A stretch of 64,000 nucleotides of DNA from Massilia solisilvae (GTDB taxonomy: Bacteria; Pseudomonadota; Gammaproteobacteria; Burkholderiales; Burkholderiaceae_D). Position 1 is the stretch's first letter, and each line of letters opens with the position of its first letter. The stretch covers positions 62,001 through 126,000 of the forward strand of contig NZ_JANUGV010000002.1 of assembly GCF_024753215.1 (NCBI RefSeq), in the 5' to 3' direction. The translations under genes were made by a program, and so were the position numbers. The notes below the pieces were generated by a model. The model searched no databases and was not told where the DNA came from. It worked only from the letters and a program-made list of their open reading frames with translations. This document shows, piece after piece, positions 13,456-23,158 of this stretch.

Positions 13456-14595
13456 TCAATAAGCCGAATGGTCGTGCTTGCGCACATAGGCCGTCGTCAC
13501 CTTGCCGGACATGACTTTGTAGGCCCAGCTGGTGTAGGCGATCACGATCGGCATGAAGATGAGCGTGGCCCAGAACATGATCCCCAGCGACAGGTGACTG
13601 GACGTGCTGTCCCACACCGTGAGGCTGGAGCGCGGGTCGGACGACGAGGGCATCAGGAACGGGAACATCGAGACGCCTGCGGTGCCGATCACGCCGGCCA
13701 GTGCCAGCGCCGAGCAGCCGAAGGCCGCCAGGGTGTAGCCCGCGCGCAGCCAGGCCAGGGCCGCGAGCACCGCGCAGTAGGCCATGGCCGGCACGGCCAC
13801 GGTGGCCGGGTAGCGGTGGTAGTTGGCCATCCAGGCCCCGGCGCTGCGGACCACTTCCTTGGCGAGCGGGTTGGGCAGGGCGGCGGGGTCCAGTGCGGAA
13901 GCGAGCACGTAGCCGGGAATGCCGCGCGCCAGCCACACGCCGGCGGCGCTGAAGGCCAGCAGCAGCACCAGGCCCGCCCAGTTGGCGGCGCGGCGCGCGC
14001 GCGCCTGGATGTGGCCTTCGGTGCGGTGGGCCAGGTACACGGCGCCGTGGAAGGTGATCATCGCCGAGGACACCACGCCGCACAGCAGCGCGAACGGGTT
14101 GAGCAGGCCGAAGAATGTGCCGGTGTAGGTCGAGCGCAGGTCGTCGTCGAAATGGAAGGGCACGCCCTGCAGCAGGTTGCCGAAGGCGACGCCGAAGATC
14201 AGCGGCGGCACCGCTCCGCCGACGAACAGGCCCCAGTCCCACACCGAGCGCCAGGTGGGGTTGTTTAGCTTGCTGCGGTAGTCAAAGCCCACCGGCCGGA
14301 AGAACAGCGCCCACAGCACCGCCAGCATGGCCCAGTAAAAGCCGGAGAACGCGGTCGCATACACCAGCGGCCAGGCGGCGAAGATGGCGCCGCCGCCGGT
14401 GATGAACCAGACCTGGTTGCCGTCCCAGTGCGGCCCGACGGTGTTGATGATGACGCGGCGTTCGACGTCGCTGCGGCCGGCAAAAGGCAGCAAGGTGCCC
14501 ACGCCCATGTCGTGGCCGTCCATGATGGCGAAACCGATCAGCAGCACGCCGACCAGCACCCACCAGATCAGTTTGAGGGTTGGATAATCAAGCAT
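13456..14595 (-). CDS. cydB: Cytochrome bd ubiquinol oxidase subunit II
   Basis: A 379-aa membrane protein beginning [20 protein letters not shown] and containing [18 protein letters not shown], the hallmark of CydB. With CydA it forms the quinol-oxidising terminal oxidase of the inner membrane. The ATG at 14593-14595 overlaps the cydA stop by eight bases, indicating translational coupling. Length is normal for the family. Confidence 0.96.
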
Positions 14596-16174
14596 GGATT
14601 TCTCCCGAGGCGGTTGCGGCGCCGTGCGCCTTCTCGCCTGCGTAGCGCCCGGTGCCCAGACTGGCCGGGCCGATGCGGGCAAAGCGCACCATCAGGTACA
14701 TTTCCACCACCAGCAGCACCGTGTAAAAGCCGACGAAGCCGGCCAGCGAGCCATACAGCGAGCCCACCGACAGCGTGGACACCGACAGGTGGGTGGGCAG
14801 CACGCCGTAGATGGTCCACGGCTGGCGGCCGTACTCGGCCACGAACCAGCCCAGTTCCGCGGCGATCCACGGCATCGGCAGCGACCACAGTGCGGCCTTG
14901 AGCAGGCGCGGGCTGGTGGAGCAGCGGCCCTTGAGTGTTTGCCAGGTGGCTGCCGCAAACAGCACCAGCATGGCAAAGCCGAATGCCACCATCAGGCGGA
15001 ACGCCCAGAACATCGGCGTCACGCGCGGAATGGTGTCCTGTACCGCCTTCTCGATCATTTCCGGCGTGGCCTCGGCCACGTTGACCACGTACTTCTTCAG
15101 CAGCAGGCCAAAGCCCAGGTCGGCCTTGTGTTCCTCGAACAGCGCGGCGGCCCGTTCGTTATGCCGGTCGCGGCGCATGATCTCGAGCGCGGTCACGGCG
15201 TCGATGCCGGACACGATGCGCGCGCGGTTCCTGGCCTGGATCTCCTTGATCCCCGGGATCTCCTTGCTGATCGAGCGGGTGCCGATCAGGCCCATCACCC
15301 ACGGCACCTGCAGCGCGAAGTCGTTCTTCAGCTCGGCCTGGTTGGGAAGGGCGATCACGTTGAATGGCGCCGGCGCCGGCTCGGTGTCCCACATGGCTTC
15401 GATGGCGGCCATCTTGGCCTGCTGCGCTTCGCCCACGGTGTAGCCGGATTCGTCGCCCAGCACGATCACCGAACAGGCCGAGGCCAGGCCGAAGGCGGCG
15501 GCCACGCGGAAGCTGCGCTTGGCGAACTCCACGTCGCGCCCGCGCAGCAGATACCACGCCGAGATCGACAGCACGAACATGGCGCCGGTCACGTAGCCGG
15601 CCGACACCGTGTGCACGAACTTGGCCTGCGCATCGGGGTTGAACAGCACGGCCCAGAAATCGACCAGTTCCATGCGCATGGTCTCCGGGCTGAACTCGGC
15701 GCCCACGGGGTTCTGCATCCAGCCGTTCGCCACCAGGATCCACAGCGCCGACAGGTTGGTGCCAACGGCCATCAGGATCGTCACCAGCAGGTGCTGGCGC
15801 CGCGAGAGCCTGTCCCAGCCAAAGAAGAACAGGCCGATGAAGGTGGACTCGAGGAAGAACGCCATCAGCCCTTCGATCGCCAGCGGCGCGCCGAAGATGT
15901 CGCCCACGTAGTGCGAGTAGTAGGCCCAGTTGGTCCCGAACTGGAATTCGAGCGTGATCCCTGTGGTCACGCCAAGGGCGAAGTTAATGCCGAACAGCTT
16001 GCCCCAGAAGCGCGTCATGTCCTTGTACACGGTCTTGCCGGTCATGACGTACACGCTTTCCATGATCACCAGCAGCCAGACCATGCCCAAAGTGAGCGGC
16101 ACGAACAGGAAGTGGTACATCGCGGTGGCCGCGAACTGCAGGCGCGACAGGTCAACCAGGTGCTCAGTTCCCAT
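14588..16174 (-). CDS. cydA: Cytochrome bd ubiquinol oxidase subunit I
   Basis: A 528-aa heme-bearing subunit. It opens with the family pattern [21 protein letters not shown], whose histidine (residue 21) matches the axial ligand of heme b595. A later [13 protein letters not shown] segment carries the b558 ligand histidine, and GRQPW lies near residue 447. Overall length fits the long-Q-loop form found in E. coli. Bd oxidases are known for tolerance of sulfide and cyanide, relevant because this gene sits directly behind sulfide-oxidising enzymes. The start overlaps cydP. Confidence 0.96.
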
Positions 16175-16331
16175 GGCGCGCCTCCTGCAGGATATCGGGC
16201 TGTGCGCCCGCCGCTGCGTGGTCGTGGAAGAATGCCTGCCACAGCACGCCCAGGACCACGAGCTTGAAGACGATGGCCAGCGCCAGGTCGCGGACCAGGC
16301 GCCGGTTCAGTACAGCGGGTGAATCGTTCAT
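16164..16331 (-). CDS. cydP: CydP-type small subunit of cytochrome bd
   Basis: A 55-aa peptide ([20 protein letters not shown]...) with a basic N-terminus, one membrane span (about residues 17-34) and a HDH-containing tail. It matches the short protein often encoded directly upstream of cydA in beta- and gammaproteobacteria (putative small subunit CydP). The stop codon overlaps the cydA start by 11 bases. Below the length used by many gene finders, but start, span and position agree. Confidence 0.85.
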
Positions 16332-16344
16332 CGCATCGCCCCTG

Positions 16345-16545
16345 TTACTGCCGCGGGGCTTTGCAGGTGTTCACCCCCAGGACGCTGTAGAGCGGACACC
16401 GCCCGGACAGTCCGGTGAGCAGCGGCACCAGGCCCACCAGTGCCCACAGGCGTACATCCTCTGCCAGGACGAAGTACAACGAAAGAATGACCAGGCCGGC
16501 GCCGATGCGCAGGCCGCTGTCCAATCCGCCTACATTAACTTGCAT
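16345..16545 (-). CDS. DUF2892 (YgaP-type) inner membrane protein
   Basis: A 66-aa protein with a glycine-rich N-terminus and two short hydrophobic helices ending in TGLSGRCPLYSVLGVNTC, the signature of DUF2892. In E. coli YgaP the same membrane domain is fused to a rhodanese, and free-standing copies occur in sulfur-handling operons. The conserved Cys in GRCPLY may bind sulfane sulfur; that is inference. It lies 13-25 bases from its neighbours. Confidence 0.88.
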   Translation of the reverse strand: MQVNVGGLDSGLRIGAGLVILSLYFVLAEDVRLWALVGLVPLLTGLSGRCPLYSVLGVNTCKAPRQ

Positions 16546-16570
16546 GATGAACTCCTTGTCGATAATCGTT

Positions 16571-18259
16571 TCAGGTGGCTGAAGGCGTGCTTACGTCCAC
16601 CAGCTCCGGATGGACCAGCCATTCGCGTCCCTTGAGCATGCCTTCCCAGTACAGCGGGGGCAGGATGCGTTCCTTGAGCAGCCACGCCAGGCGCGACGGA
16701 CGGGTGCCGTCGATCAGCCAGCGCGGGAAGCTGGGCGCGACCTTGCCGCCGTAGGTGAATTCGGCCAGCACGATTTTTCCGCGCTCGACCGTGAGCGGGC
16801 ACGAGCCGTAGCCGTTGTAGCGCGCCTCGCCCTTGGCCTGGCCCAGCGCGGCCAGCACGTTGTGCGCGACCACCGGCGCCTGCGTGCGCGCGGCGGCGGC
16901 GGTCTTGGCGTTGGGCGAACTGCCGGCGTCGCCCAGCGCATAGATGTTGGCGTAGGTCTTGTGGCGCATCGTGGCCTGGTCGATGTCGACCCAGCCGGCG
17001 GCGTCGGCCAGCGGGCTGACACGGATGAAGTCGGGCGCCTTTTGGGGCGGCACCACGTGCAGCATGTCGAACGGCTCCTTCACCAGCTGCTCCGTGCCGT
17101 CTTTCTCGATGTGCCGGAAGGTCGCCACGCGCGCCGGGCCGTCCACCGCCACCAGGTTGTGGCGGAAGTTCAGGCCGATCATGTACGAGCGCACATACTC
17201 CATCAGGGCCGGCACGTAGTCGTTCACGCCGAACAGCACGTCGCCCGCGCTGTAGAAGCGGATGTCGACCTCTTCCAGCACCCCGCTGCGGCGCCAGTGG
17301 TCGGCCGACAGGTACATGGCCTTTTGCGGCGCGCCGGCGCACTTGATCGGCATGGGCGGCTGGGTGAACAGGGCGCGGCCTCCGCGCAGCGACTGCACCA
17401 GCTGCCAGGTGTAGGGCGCAAGGTGGTACAGATAGTTGGAGGTAACGCCGTTCTGGCCCAGCGTTTCGGCCAGGCCGTCGATCGTGTGCCAGTCGAGCTT
17501 CAGGCCCGGGCAGACCACCAGCTGCTTGTACTTGACCACGCGGCAGCCGTCCAGGATGAGGGCGTTGCGCTCCGGTTCGAACGCGGCCACCGCCGCCTTG
17601 ATCCACTTGGCGCCTTGCGGGATAGTGGAGCCCATGGTGCGCGCGGTACGCTCCACCTTGAACGCGCCGCCGCCCACCAGGGTCCAGCCGGGCTGGTAGT
17701 AGTGCACGTCGGCCGGGTCGATGATGGCGATGTCCAGTCCCGGGCTGCGCGCCAGCATGCTGGAGGCGACGGCGATGCCTGCCGCGCCGCCGCCCACCAC
17801 CACCACCTCGTGCTCGGCTTCGGCCACCTCCACCGGCGTGCGGCCGTTGTTGGCGATGCGGCGCACCACGCCTTTCAGGTCGTAGCCCGCGCGCGAGGCC
17901 TTTTCGATGATCTGCGCCAGCGGCAGGCTGCCGGCCTGCGACAGCGCCCACATGGTGGTCGAGCGCATGCCGGTGCGGCAGAAGGCCAGCGCCGGCTTGG
18001 GCAGGGTGGCCAGCAGGGCGCCGAAGTCGCGGCCCTGCTGGTCGGTCACCTTGCCCGATTCGGCCGGCAGGTAGTGCGCTTCCAGCCCGGCCGCGCGCGC
18101 CGCCTGTTCGATCTCGGCGAACAGCGGCTGGTCGTTGCCCTCGCCATCAGGGCGGTTGCAGATCACGGCGCGAAAGCCTTTTTGCTTGAGCGTGGCGATG
18201 TCAATCGCCTGGATCTGGGGCGCGACCGATAGCTCGGCCGTCAGGTAGTGGATGTCCAT
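16571..18259 (-). CDS. sqr: Phosphatase-like (DUF442) domain fused to type II sulfide:quinone oxidoreductase
   Basis: A 562-aa fusion. Residues 1-130 form a DUF442/beta-lactamase-hydrolase-like phosphatase domain with a CRTGMRS loop (Cys94, Arg99). Residues 150-560 are a flavoprotein disulfide reductase starting at GGGAAG (156-161). Cys307 in IKCAGAPQK and Cys487 in GYGSCPL match, with flanking residues, the two redox cysteines of human-type SQR, so sulfide:quinone oxidoreductase activity is well supported. SQR oxidises sulfide to sulfane sulfur and reduces quinone. Located 34 bp after the dioxygenase gene in one operon. Role of the N-terminal domain is unknown. Confidence 0.9.
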   Translation of the reverse strand: MDIHYLTAELSVAPQIQAIDIATLKQKGFRAVICNRPDGEGNDQPLFAEIEQAARAAGLEAHYLPAESGKVTDQQGRDFGALLATLPKPALAFCRTGMRSTTMWALSQAGSLPLAQIIEKASRAGYDLKGVVRRIANNGRTPVEVAEAEHEVVVVGGGAAGIAVASSMLARSPGLDIAIIDPADVHYYQPGWTLVGGGAFKVERTARTMGSTIPQGAKWIKAAVAAFEPERNALILDGCRVVKYKQLVVCPGLKLDWHTIDGLAETLGQNGVTSNYLYHLAPYTWQLVQSLRGGRALFTQPPMPIKCAGAPQKAMYLSADHWRRSGVLEEVDIRFYSAGDVLFGVNDYVPALMEYVRSYMIGLNFRHNLVAVDGPARVATFRHIEKDGTEQLVKEPFDMLHVVPPQKAPDFIRVSPLADAAGWVDIDQATMRHKTYANIYALGDAGSSPNAKTAAAARTQAPVVAHNVLAALGQAKGEARYNGYGSCPLTVERGKIVLAEFTYGGKVAPSFPRWLIDGTRPSRLAWLLKERILPPLYWEGMLKGREWLVHPELVDVSTPSAT

Positions 18260-18293
18260 GTTGTCTCCGGTCTTGTTCGATTGTGGGTGGTGC

Positions 18294-19178
18294 TCACAGG
18301 GCGTTGAGCGGGATCTTCAGGTAGCGCATGCCGTTGTCTTCCGCCTCGGGCAGGTGGCCGGCGCGCATGTTCACCTGCACCGAGGGCAGGATCAGCACGG
18401 GCATATCGAGGGTGGCGTCGCGGCGGCTGCGCATGCCCACGAATTCGTCCTCGCTGATACCGTCGCGCACGTGGATGTTGCTGGCGCGTTCTTCCGCCAC
18501 GGTGGTCACGAACTCCACCGGCCTGCCGTTGGGCTGGTAGTCGTGGCACATGTACAGCTTCGTTTCCGGGGGCAGGCTCAGCACCTTGTTGATCGAACGG
18601 TAGAGGGTGCGCGCGTCCCCGCCAGGGAAGTCGCAGCGCGCGGTGCCGTAGTCGGGCATGAACAGGGTGTCGCCGACGAAGGCGGCCGTCTCCGCCCCAT
18701 CCTCGATCACGTAGGTGACGCAGGCGGGCGTGTGGCCCGGCGTGTGCATCGCTTGCGCGCGCAGGGCGCCGATCGTGAAGTGCTCGCCATCGTCGAACAG
18801 GTGGTCGAACTGGCTGCCGTCACGCGCAAAGCCCGGGCCGGCGTTGAAGAGATTGCCGAACACGCCCTGCACCGTCGTGATGTGCTTGCCGATGCCGACC
18901 TTGCCGCCCAACTTGTCCTTCAGGTAGGGGGCGGCCGTCAGGTGGTCGGCGTGCACGTGGGTTTCAAGAATCCAGCTCACTTTGGCGCCCAGCTCCTTGA
19001 CGCGCGCAATCACCTTGTCGGCGCTCGTGGTGGAGGTGCGGCCGGACTTGTGGTCATAGTCCAGCACGCTGTCGATGATCGCGCACTCCATGCTCTCGCG
19101 GTCCATAACGATGTACGTCACGGTCCAGGTGTGCGGGTCGAAAAAGCCCTCGACCACCATTGCGTTTTGTTTTCCCAT
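18294..19178 (-). CDS. pdo: Persulfide dioxygenase (MBL fold)
   Basis: A 294-aa metallo-beta-lactamase-fold enzyme with THVHADH (His74, His76, Asp78, His79) and the late PGHTPACV, DYGTARCDFPGGDA and CHDY motifs typical of ETHE1-like persulfide dioxygenases. These oxidise glutathione persulfide to sulfite. The ATG at 19176-19178 follows an AGGAGAC-like ribosome binding site. It is the first gene of the nine-gene minus-strand run and has a perfect sigma-54 promoter 45 bp upstream plus a divergent FisR-like activator. A plain MBL hydrolase is the alternative; neighbouring SQR and FisR make the dioxygenase call strong. Confidence 0.9.
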   Translation of the reverse strand: MGKQNAMVVEGFFDPHTWTVTYIVMDRESMECAIIDSVLDYDHKSGRTSTTSADKVIARVKELGAKVSWILETHVHADHLTAAPYLKDKLGGKVGIGKHITTVQGVFGNLFNAGPGFARDGSQFDHLFDDGEHFTIGALRAQAMHTPGHTPACVTYVIEDGAETAAFVGDTLFMPDYGTARCDFPGGDARTLYRSINKVLSLPPETKLYMCHDYQPNGRPVEFVTTVAEERASNIHVRDGISEDEFVGMRSRRDATLDMPVLILPSVQVNMRAGHLPEAEDNGMRYLKIPLNAL

Positions 19179-19222: not shown

Positions 19223-19238
19223 TGCAAGCGCCGTGCCA
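19223..19238 (-). promoter_or_regulatory. Sigma-54 promoter of the sulfide/cyd operon
   Basis: Minus strand reads TGGCACGGCGCTTGCA, identical to the -24/-12 consensus TGGCACG-N4-TTGCA. The inferred transcription start is about 12 bases further, near 19212, giving a leader of about 34 bases before the dioxygenase ATG. Confidence 0.93.
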
Positions 19239-19326: not shown

Positions 19327-19393
19327 TGGCAGGTGGCCCGGCAGTGGCAGTAAATGGCAGAAATTTGGCAGTGCGGTGGCAGTATGCTGGCAG
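19327..19393. promoter_or_regulatory. Helically phased TGGCAG repeat array (probable activator-binding UAS)
   Basis: TGGCAG occurs at 19327, 19345, 19355, 19366, 19377 and 19388, with a near copy CGGCAG at 19339. The last five lie 10-11 bp apart, one helical turn each, so they present on the same DNA face. The array is about 115-180 bp upstream of the inferred start of the sigma-54 promoter, the normal place for an enhancer-type activator site, and ends 22 bp before the fisR ATG, so it could serve both genes. Binding by the FisR-like protein is inferred. Confidence 0.7.
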
Positions 19394-19414
19394 TCGATGC
19401 AGCAGGGGTGCATA

Positions 19415-20776
19415 ATGGACGGGTCATCGTTCAAGGTCCCAGCCATGCCATCCGCTCCGTCCGCCCCCCAGGTCCAGGCCCTCGTCTCATTCCTCGAGCA
19501 CGAGTCCGAGCCTATGATTGTCCTCGACGTTGATTACAACATCCTTGCATCCAACACGGCCTACCAGCGCCAGTTCGGCATCGCCGGGCACAGTGCGGCC
19601 GGGCAGAAGTGTTACCGCGTATCGCACCACTACGATGTGCCGTGCGACCTGGCGGGCGAGCACTGCCCGATGAAAAAGGCGCAGGAAAAGCGCGGGCCGG
19701 ACCGCGTGCTGCACATCCACCACACGCCGCGCGGGCCGGAACACGTGAATGTGGAATTGCGGCCGATCCTGGACGACGCGCACGAGGTCGTGGCTTATGT
19801 GGAACGGCTGGTCACGGTGCGCAATGCATCGGCGCGCACCACCAGCGACGGCCTGGTCGGGCGCTCGCCCGCCTTCGTGCGCGCGCTCGAAGCGCTGCAG
19901 CGGGCCGCGCCGGCCATGCTGCCGGTGCTGCTGCTGGGCGAATCGGGCAGCGGCAAGGAACTGTTCGCGCGTGCACTGCACGAAGCCAGCGACCGCGCCG
20001 CTGGTCCTTTCGTCGTGGTCGATTGTTCAGGTCTCACCGAAACGCTGTTCGAGAGCGAACTGTTTGGTTACGAGAAGGGCGCGTTCACCGGCGCGCAGGC
20101 GCGCAAGCACGGGCTGGTCGAGACGGCGCGCGGCGGCACCTTGTTCCTGGATGAGATCGGCGACGTCCCGCTGGGCATGCAGGTCAAGCTGCTGCGCCTG
20201 ATCGAAAGCGGCACCTATCGCCGCGTGGGCGGGCTGGAGACGCTGCACAGCGATTTTCGCCTGGTCGCCGCGACCCACAAGCCGCTGGCGGACATGGTGG
20301 CGGACGGACGCTTTCGGCAGGACCTGTATTACCGCATCAGCGCCTATCCGATCCACCTGCCGGCGTTGCGCGAACGCGGCGAGGACATCCCGTTGCTGAT
20401 CGAGTCGGTGCTGCAGCGCCTGGCCAAGATGGGGCGGCCGTACCGGGTCACCCCGGAAGCGCTGGCCGCGCTCCAGTCGTACAGCTGGCCGGGCAATATC
20501 CGCGAGCTGCGCAACGTGCTCGAGCGCGCCACGCTGTTTGCGGACGACCGCGTGATCGGGCTCGCGCAGTTACCGGACTTCGTGCTCCACACGCATCCGG
20601 GCTTGCCCGCGCCGGGCTTGGCGACCCGTGCGGTGCCCACCGGCGCAAAGCTCACGGACCAGGCGCTGGCCACCTACGCGGCCGGGTTCGCGGGCACCCG
20701 CGCCGAGCTTGCCCGTGCGCTCGGCATGAGCGAACGCACGTTGTACCGCCGGCTGAAATCACTGCAGCTGGCGTAG
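19415..20776 (+). CDS. fisR: FisR-like sigma-54-dependent activator (sulfane-sulfur sensor)
   Basis: A 453-aa enhancer-binding protein: N-terminal PAS-like sensor (to about residue 140), AAA+ domain with Walker A GESGSGKE (175-182) and the sigma-54 contact loop GAFTGA (222-227), and a C-terminal Fis-type helix-turn-helix (about 430-451). Three sensor cysteines (66, 77, 84) are spaced +11 and +18, the same spacing as Cys53/64/71 of Cupriavidus FisR, which senses sulfane sulfur and activates sqr and pdo. The chosen ATG follows AGGGGTG; 19445 is an alternative. Divergent from pdo, separated by the phased repeats. Confidence 0.9.
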
Positions 20777-21196: not shown

Positions 21197-21832
21197 ATGA
21201 AATCCGCAATTGCTTCACCCAGGCTGCGCATCGTGGTCGTCATTCCGACCACGGCCACCGACGAAGACGGCTCCGCCGCGGCTCAGGCGCAGCGCGGCGC
21301 GGCCCTGCGCATCGGCTTGCTCGAATCGGGCTACGACATCGTCGCCTCGCTGCCTGCCGATATCTTCCTGCCCGAGCGCATCGCCCAACTGCAGCCCGAC
21401 CTGATCATCGCCGACAGCGAATCGGACGCGCGCGACGTACTCGAACACATCGTGCTGGCCACGCGCGCGGCGCCGCGGCCGATCGTGCTGTTTACCGACG
21501 ACCAGGACGAGTCCAGCGTGGAAGCGGCGATGGCGGCGGGCGTGACGGCCTACATCGTGGCCGGGCTGCAACCCGAGCGCGTCAAGCCGGTGCTCGACGT
21601 GGCGCTGGCGCGCTTCCGGCGCGAGCGCAAGCTGCTCGACGAGCTGTCCGAGACGCGCCAGAAGCTGGCCGAGCGCAAGGTGGTCGAGCGCGCCAAGGGG
21701 CTGCTGATGGCGCGCCACGGGCTGTCGGAAGAGCAGGCCTACCAGAAGCTGCGCAGCATGGCGATGAACAAGAACCTGAAACTGGCCGAGATCGCCCAGC
21801 GCATCCTCGATGTCGAGGACCTGCTGGGCTGA
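21197..21832 (+). CDS. nasT: ANTAR-domain antiterminator NasT
   Basis: A 211-aa response-regulator-like protein. Residues 10-135 form a receiver-type domain that lacks a clear phosphorylation-site pattern. Residues about 150-208 form the ANTAR RNA-binding helix bundle (KVVERAKGLLMARHGLSEEQAYQKLRSMAM). NasT binds paired hexaloop hairpins and prevents termination ahead of nitrate-assimilation genes; such hairpins are present at 23171-23221. It is followed 25 bp later by nasS, its sensor/antagonist. Confidence 0.93.
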   Translation: MKSAIASPRLRIVVVIPTTATDEDGSAAAQAQRGAALRIGLLESGYDIVASLPADIFLPERIAQLQPDLIIADSESDARDVLEHIVLATRAAPRPIVLFTDDQDESSVEAAMAAGVTAYIVAGLQPERVKPVLDVALARFRRERKLLDELSETRQKLAERKVVERAKGLLMARHGLSEEQAYQKLRSMAMNKNLKLAEIAQRILDVEDLLG

Positions 21833-23142: not shown

Positions 23143-23158
23143 TGGCACGCCTCTTGCA
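23143..23158 (+). promoter_or_regulatory. Sigma-54 promoter of the nitrate-assimilation operon
   Basis: TGGCACGCCTCTTGCA is identical to the consensus TGGCACG-N4-TTGCA. The inferred start (about 23169) falls two bases before the first leader hairpin. A 14-bp palindrome TGCGGCGCGCCGCA at 23054-23067 and nearby GGTGC/GCACC half-sites could be part of the NtrC enhancer. Confidence 0.93.

Follow-up and report, generated by a model that had tools for sequence, protein, structure and literature searches.

Between the divergent genes fisR and pdo in the 64,000-nucleotide stretch of Massilia solisilvae DNA analysed here (the window), a single hexamer recurs at steps close to one helical turn, raising the question of what protein this array might serve and how. 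Six exact copies of TGGCAG occur on the + strand in 19327-19393, starting at 19327, 19345, 19355, 19366, 19377 and 19388. The five proximal copies (19345..19393, +) form a core array of proposed FisR half-sites, with start-to-start steps of 10, 11, 11 and 11 bp; to their left lie the remaining exact copy (19327-19332) and a one-mismatch copy, CGGCAG (19339-19344), which together make up a distal pair (19327..19344, +). The sequence thus bears out both the five stepped copies and the two further ones, one of them imperfect, described in an initial sequence-only reading of this DNA.

TGGCAG is not abundant in its surroundings: 43 exact copies on both strands of the window, including the six in the array, compare with a shuffle mean of 55.3, so the background of this word is not raised. 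When chains of any hexamer at steps of 9-12 bp were sought, the longest in the window was a run of TGGCAG with five copies. Among 150 randomized windows from a third-order Markov model the longest chain was two in 113, three in 36 and four in one; because a five-copy chain of any hexamer appeared in none of the 150, the array is beyond chance. Over the entire 5.2-Mb genome, three TGGCAG copies with N4-5 between them are unique to the array, and pairs with N3-6 between them occur at 11 places, four of these inside the array, as compared with four in a reversed control.

The gene to the right of the array, fisR (19415..20776, +), was assigned from domain profile matches (PAS_4, Sigma54_activat and HTH_8) as encoding a PAS domain, an AAA+ sigma-54 activator domain and a Fis-type helix-turn-helix (HTH); PF00158 was matched, and PF02954 scored 22.8 bits relative to a cut-off of 22. 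The GAFTGA loop is invariant in the aligned sequences, and cysteines C66, C77 and C84, which we take to be the sensing cysteines of the Cupriavidus FisR, are invariant in 19 aligned sequences. The product and its locus therefore show the features by which FisR, a sigma-54 activator responding to sulfide and sulfane sulfur, is recognized: an AAA+ domain with GAFTGA together with an HTH, N-terminal cysteines, and a divergent pdo-sqr pair with a sigma-54 promoter. Among 62 genomes of the genus, fisR was found at E 1e-100 or better in four, the other three products being 98% (sister species, G531), 68% and 66% identical to that of the window; this patchy distribution suggests gain and loss, or transfer.

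On the opposite strand, pdo (18294..19178, -; Lactamase_B) encodes a metallo-beta-lactamase-fold persulfide dioxygenase that aligns to the dioxygenase part (140-423) of model NF040641 with 394 bits, below the full-length cut-off of 625. The adjacent gene (16571..18259, -) encodes an sqr-like flavoprotein that carries a sulfur-transferase domain at its N terminus (TIGR01244, above cut-off) and scores 174.7 bits with the SQR model NF049943, short of the 525 that this model requires. At this locus the bifunctional Blh model NF040641 is split in two, its N-terminal sulfur-transferase half being fused to the sqr-like protein and its dioxygenase half constituting pdo. These two genes, followed by those for a YgaP-like membrane protein (16345-16545, -) and CydP (16164-16331, -), and by cydA and cydB, lie in series on one strand with small gaps (13456-19178, -), and because of this arrangement the sigma-54 promoter facing pdo may also serve the bd-oxidase operon. 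Bd oxidase is an enzyme resistant to sulfide, and it may be produced jointly with the sulfide-oxidising enzymes.

That promoter, TGGCACGGCGCTTGCA (19223..19238, -), has no mismatch to the sigma-54 consensus and is one of six exact matches in the genome. Sites within one mismatch number 40, compared with 43 in a reversed control, so most of these are attributable to chance. Another perfect promoter, at 23143-23158 (+) between genes for an SsuA-like protein and a transporter-like protein, has no exact TGGCAG or CTGCCA within 300 bp upstream; an ANTAR-domain gene occupies 21197-21829. Measured from the near end of the motif facing pdo (19238-19223, -), the two edges of the array lie at 104 and 171 bp, inside the interval of roughly 80-200 bp upstream in which sigma-54 enhancers are placed; such distances are ordinary for enhancers of this promoter class, in keeping with the position originally proposed. 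On the strength of this perfect promoter 104-171 bp away and the domain make-up of FisR, we consider it highly probable that the array is the FisR enhancer (upstream activating sequence) and that TGGCAG is the FisR half-site.

The array also adjoins a candidate sigma-70 promoter for fisR itself, CTGGCA-N18-CATAAT (19387..19416, +; 9/12 positions), which overlaps the last repeat and represents one match compared with a shuffle mean of 0.1. Translation may begin at ATG 19415 or ATG 19445; if the candidate promoter is used, the start must lie beyond ATG 19415, and ATG 19445 is then the simplest and more likely choice. The suggested autoregulation of fisR is compatible with this overlap. In the sister species the CATAAT is retained with a spacer of 19 bp instead of 18, and in 10 of 38 fisR upstream regions from relatives (defined below) TTGAC[A/G] stands 3-5 bp ahead of a TGGCAG, again linking the array with a possible -35 element of fisR.

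Conservation in the sister species lends further weight to the enhancer reading. The corresponding stretch of G531 contains five TGGCAG copies with spacers of N4, N5, N5 and N5, the layout of the window; all 30 hexamer positions and 9 of 19 spacer positions are alike, and, the hexamers having been the search target, the telling feature is that number and spacing are unchanged although the spacers have diverged. The two distal copies (19327 and 19339) have no counterpart in G531, and their importance for the array is for that reason doubtful. These data bear equally on the idea that the array is a tandem repeat without function. Triple TGGCAG with N3-6 between copies occurs in 13 of the 62 genus genomes, three with fisR (the window's own, the sister species and G553) and 10 without, and seven of these 10 have identical spacers, as such a repeat would; the triple of G553 is likewise a simple repeat, located elsewhere than its fisR. 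Against this, the spacers of the window's array are all different, in contrast to a recent tandem duplication, and have diverged from those of the sister species with hexamers and spacing unchanged. We rejected the functionless repeat on this divergence and regard it as extremely improbable.

To survey the motif more broadly we used 38 fisR upstream regions, comprising that of the window (L084), nine named loci with at least 64% identity (L004-L012, of 80), L132, L161 and L162, and 25 of 39 family matches (L085-L109); L013-L022, L110-L113 and L133-L160, though read, and L023-L083 are outside these counts. No two regions are identical, yet they are related rather than independent events, and species may overlap between the two sources. 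Within 230 bp upstream of fisR they contain 153 copies of TGGCAG/CTGCCA (105 forward, 48 inverted), compared with a mean of 9.5 and a maximum of 19 in 200 dinucleotide shuffles. At least two copies are present in 35 regions and at least three in 33, so that the repeat first seen in the window, together with its counterpart in the sister species, proves to be conserved in close relatives. Exact hexamers were the search target, making core identity partly a matter of construction; when all hexamers were ranked by the number of regions with at least two copies, TGGCAG/CTGCCA came first (35), the next-ranked words overlapped it, and the first that did not, CGGCGC, reached seven regions. One-mismatch copies adjoining exact ones numbered 39, compared with 6.4 on average and at most 14 in 200 shuffles. 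When these are counted as rungs, 15 of the 38 regions have five and 10 have six, the rest ranging from none to nine.

Spacing in the family follows the helix, as had been supposed from the window alone. Neighbouring forward copies no more than 30 bp apart form 61 pairs, of which 41 are separated by 9-12 bp and 14 by 20-22 bp; the best period tried for same-orientation distances was 10.5 bp, with a value of 0.65 where the uniform null reached at most 0.31. Inverted-forward pairs (n = 32) fall at 8 bp in 14 cases and at 10 bp in seven, with a best period tried of 10.75 bp. The five Burkholderia-type loci have constant spacing, and 12 to 17 of 18 spacer bases are alike in their ten pairwise comparisons. 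The base immediately following TGGCAG is T in 63%.

Orientation is another matter. The contrast drawn at the outset between a direct array and the usual dyad stands at the window's site, where no exact CTGCCA lies near the array as a dyad-type enhancer in the style of NtrC, NorR or GcsR would have it, and CTGCCA-N0-7-TGGCAG occurs nowhere in the genome; it fails for the family, in which an inverted copy is present in 33 of the 38 regions, and we abandoned the idea that the family as a rule uses direct repeats alone. Layouts seen include RFFFF, RRFFF, RRFrF, rRFfF and FFFFF (F forward, R inverted, lower case one mismatch). At least three forward copies with no exact inverted copy were found only in the window, the sister species and L010, and the window is the all-direct extreme of the family's mixed-orientation arrays.

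The same variation bears on whether the array could instead consist of overlapping sigma-54 promoter elements that hold sigma-54 RNA polymerase facing fisR. In TGGCAG-N5-TGGCA, GG and GC are as far apart as in a -24/-12 promoter, steps of 11 bp suit GG-N10-GC spacing, and 19334-19349, the closest sigma-54 match toward fisR, has two mismatches. That match lies outside the conserved core, however, the -12 half would read TGGCA and not TTGCW, and in relatives the steps are often 9, 10 or 12 bp, with one copy in three inverted. Given this varying orientation and spacing, and a best match to TGGCAC-N5-TTGCW with two mismatches, we set the array aside as a series of sigma-54 promoters and judge this explanation very unlikely.

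In the relatives, further clusters near fisR accord with the enhancer reading, and the promoter counts weigh against it. Only 18 of the 38 loci have a sigma-54 match of at least 9/12 at 59-122 bp by a stricter scoring rule, and 25 have one by a looser count in which some matches overlap the array itself. Behind fisR, at a distance of up to about 450 bp, 13 of the 38 loci have half-site clusters, and in nine of these a sigma-54-like site follows 97-134 bp further on; the loci are of unequal length, so that little can be read into the absence of such a cluster. In Cupriavidus metallidurans CH34 the copies before fisR read R-F-F-F and those behind it R-R-R-F-F, no sigma-54 match of at least 10 being listed there, and L005 has a cluster 1.6 kb behind fisR. 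Exceptions likewise count against the enhancer reading: L101 and L103 have one half-site each, and L087 (FisR 76% identical) has none in the 230 bp upstream of fisR, its array not being found in genome G097. In L133-L160, whose FisRs are about 55% identical, TGACA/TGTCA words occur at least twice in 21 of 28 regions, a count made without a shuffle control, and may represent a changed half-site.

Elsewhere in the window's genome, at least two exact half-sites within 300 bp upstream were found at two of 30 sigma-54-like sites examined (of 40), both exact promoters: that of pdo and C27:174994-175009. The latter precedes a gene whose product matches DUF3149 (23.7 bits, cut-off 23.2) and a second CcoG-like gene, coding for a 4Fe-4S protein (L129/L193, C27 about 173756-175090). 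That a second half-site array also precedes a perfect sigma-54 promoter, and that clusters recur behind fisR, adds to the case for an enhancer. The second array reads R0 R8 f19 F28 F37 and, in the sister species, R0 r8 F19 F28 F37, exact copies being located by search and the one-mismatch copies (f19, r8) assigned by eye. Its inverted copies further restrict the direct-repeat description, and since the pdo array reads entirely as CTGCCA toward its promoter and the second array ends in TGGCAG, a fixed half-site direction toward the sigma-54 promoter was excluded within this genome. Of 25 CcoG-like loci in 23 of 30 genus genomes, only those of the window's genome and the sister species have both array and promoter; Counting against the enhancer reading, G553 and G139 possess fisR and no array-bearing CcoG-like gene.

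Because we infer the binding of FisR, the array might also be the site of another regulator sharing the intergenic region. The three remaining fisR-less genomes with triple TGGCAG (G550, G552 and G554) have unequal spacers, as this would allow; when triple contexts were read (G546, G550, G552, G553 and G554), two of these three appeared to lie inside coding sequence. The motif, moreover, tracks fisR over many genera and adjoins sigma-54 promoters, and the mixed-orientation pattern CTGCCA-N2-5-TGGCAG-N3-5-TGGCAG was found in one of 62 genus genomes, at the fisR of G553. The shorter CTGCCA-N2-5-TGGCAG occurs at six places in G097, three in G125 and one in G139, and in six such places examined a nearby sigma-54-like site was present only beside fisR in G125. 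We think another regulator unlikely.

Returning to FisR as the probable occupant, the array would act as follows. A series of some five half-sites, spaced by one helical turn and on one face of the DNA, would hold FisR subunits side by side; with sulfane sulfur acting on the N-terminal cysteine domain, the AAA+ ring could then assemble; and the DNA would loop, bringing the ring to the pdo promoter roughly 100 bp off, where it could remodel sigma-54 RNA polymerase. Bound FisR would also limit its own synthesis, an autorepression expected from the overlap of the last repeat with the candidate fisR promoter. An AlphaFold2 model of FisR without DNA (mean pLDDT 83.2, pTM 0.57) contains a three-helix HTH at 415-449 preceded by a weakly predicted stretch (391-410), and is compatible with HTH heads able to turn on that stretch. 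We tentatively advance, as a possibility short of probable, that the FisR enhancer is generally a ladder with some five rungs, each a single half-site that engages one HTH head per turn in either orientation, with no need for dimers paired on dyads; the window and sister species would then represent its limiting form, all five rungs pointing one way. If so, the enhancer grammar of ring-forming sigma-54 activators would lie in pitch and rung number and not in palindromes. The natural orientation series (FFFFF, RFFFF, RRFFF and others) at near-constant pitch should be informative on how such an activator with a Fis-type HTH loads onto DNA. The proposed half-site would also make FisR regulons predictable from sequence, and already points to the CcoG-like target and to the bd oxidase as a possible partner of the sulfide-oxidising enzymes.

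These features may be set beside systems already described. That FisR is a sigma-54 activator which switches on pdo-sqr upon sulfide induction is established (PMC7315123), and Cupriavidus pinatubonensis (Li et al. 2017, as cited in PMC7315123) and Acinetobacter baumannii likewise have divergent fisR and pdo-sqr with a sigma-54 promoter. For A. baumannii, FisR is described as having no regulatory cysteines (PMC7315123), whereas they are present in that of the window. The accessible part of that account gives no FisR binding site, and the literature searched, in the portions available, yielded no stated half-site, though one may already be in print. Multi-site enhancers are in themselves ordinary, as Nla28, NorR and GcsR each have such sites. 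NorR/norVW resembles the present locus in pairing a sensor sigma-54 activator with a divergent detoxification operon and in using several enhancer sites to scaffold ring assembly, as proposed here for FisR (PMC2941729); it differs in having three separate enhancer sites, where the window has single half-sites at helical pitch in one direction. Nla28 of Myxococcus xanthus is likewise a sigma-54 activator with clustered direct half-sites, three to five in number and imperfect, but their spacing is wider and looser (searched up to 25 bp apart), the 8-bp word is nearly the same on both strands, and no helical ladder is reported in the available part of that study (PMC9765219). GcsR of Pseudomonas aeruginosa similarly has tandem sites, three for one sigma-54 activator, although each consists of two 7-bp arms around N4 and so forms a dyad, unlike the half-sites of the window (PMC4894688). 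What sets the FisR arrays apart is accordingly a variant on these arrangements: a directional half-site employed in both orientations at helical pitch and, in the window, entirely as direct repeats.
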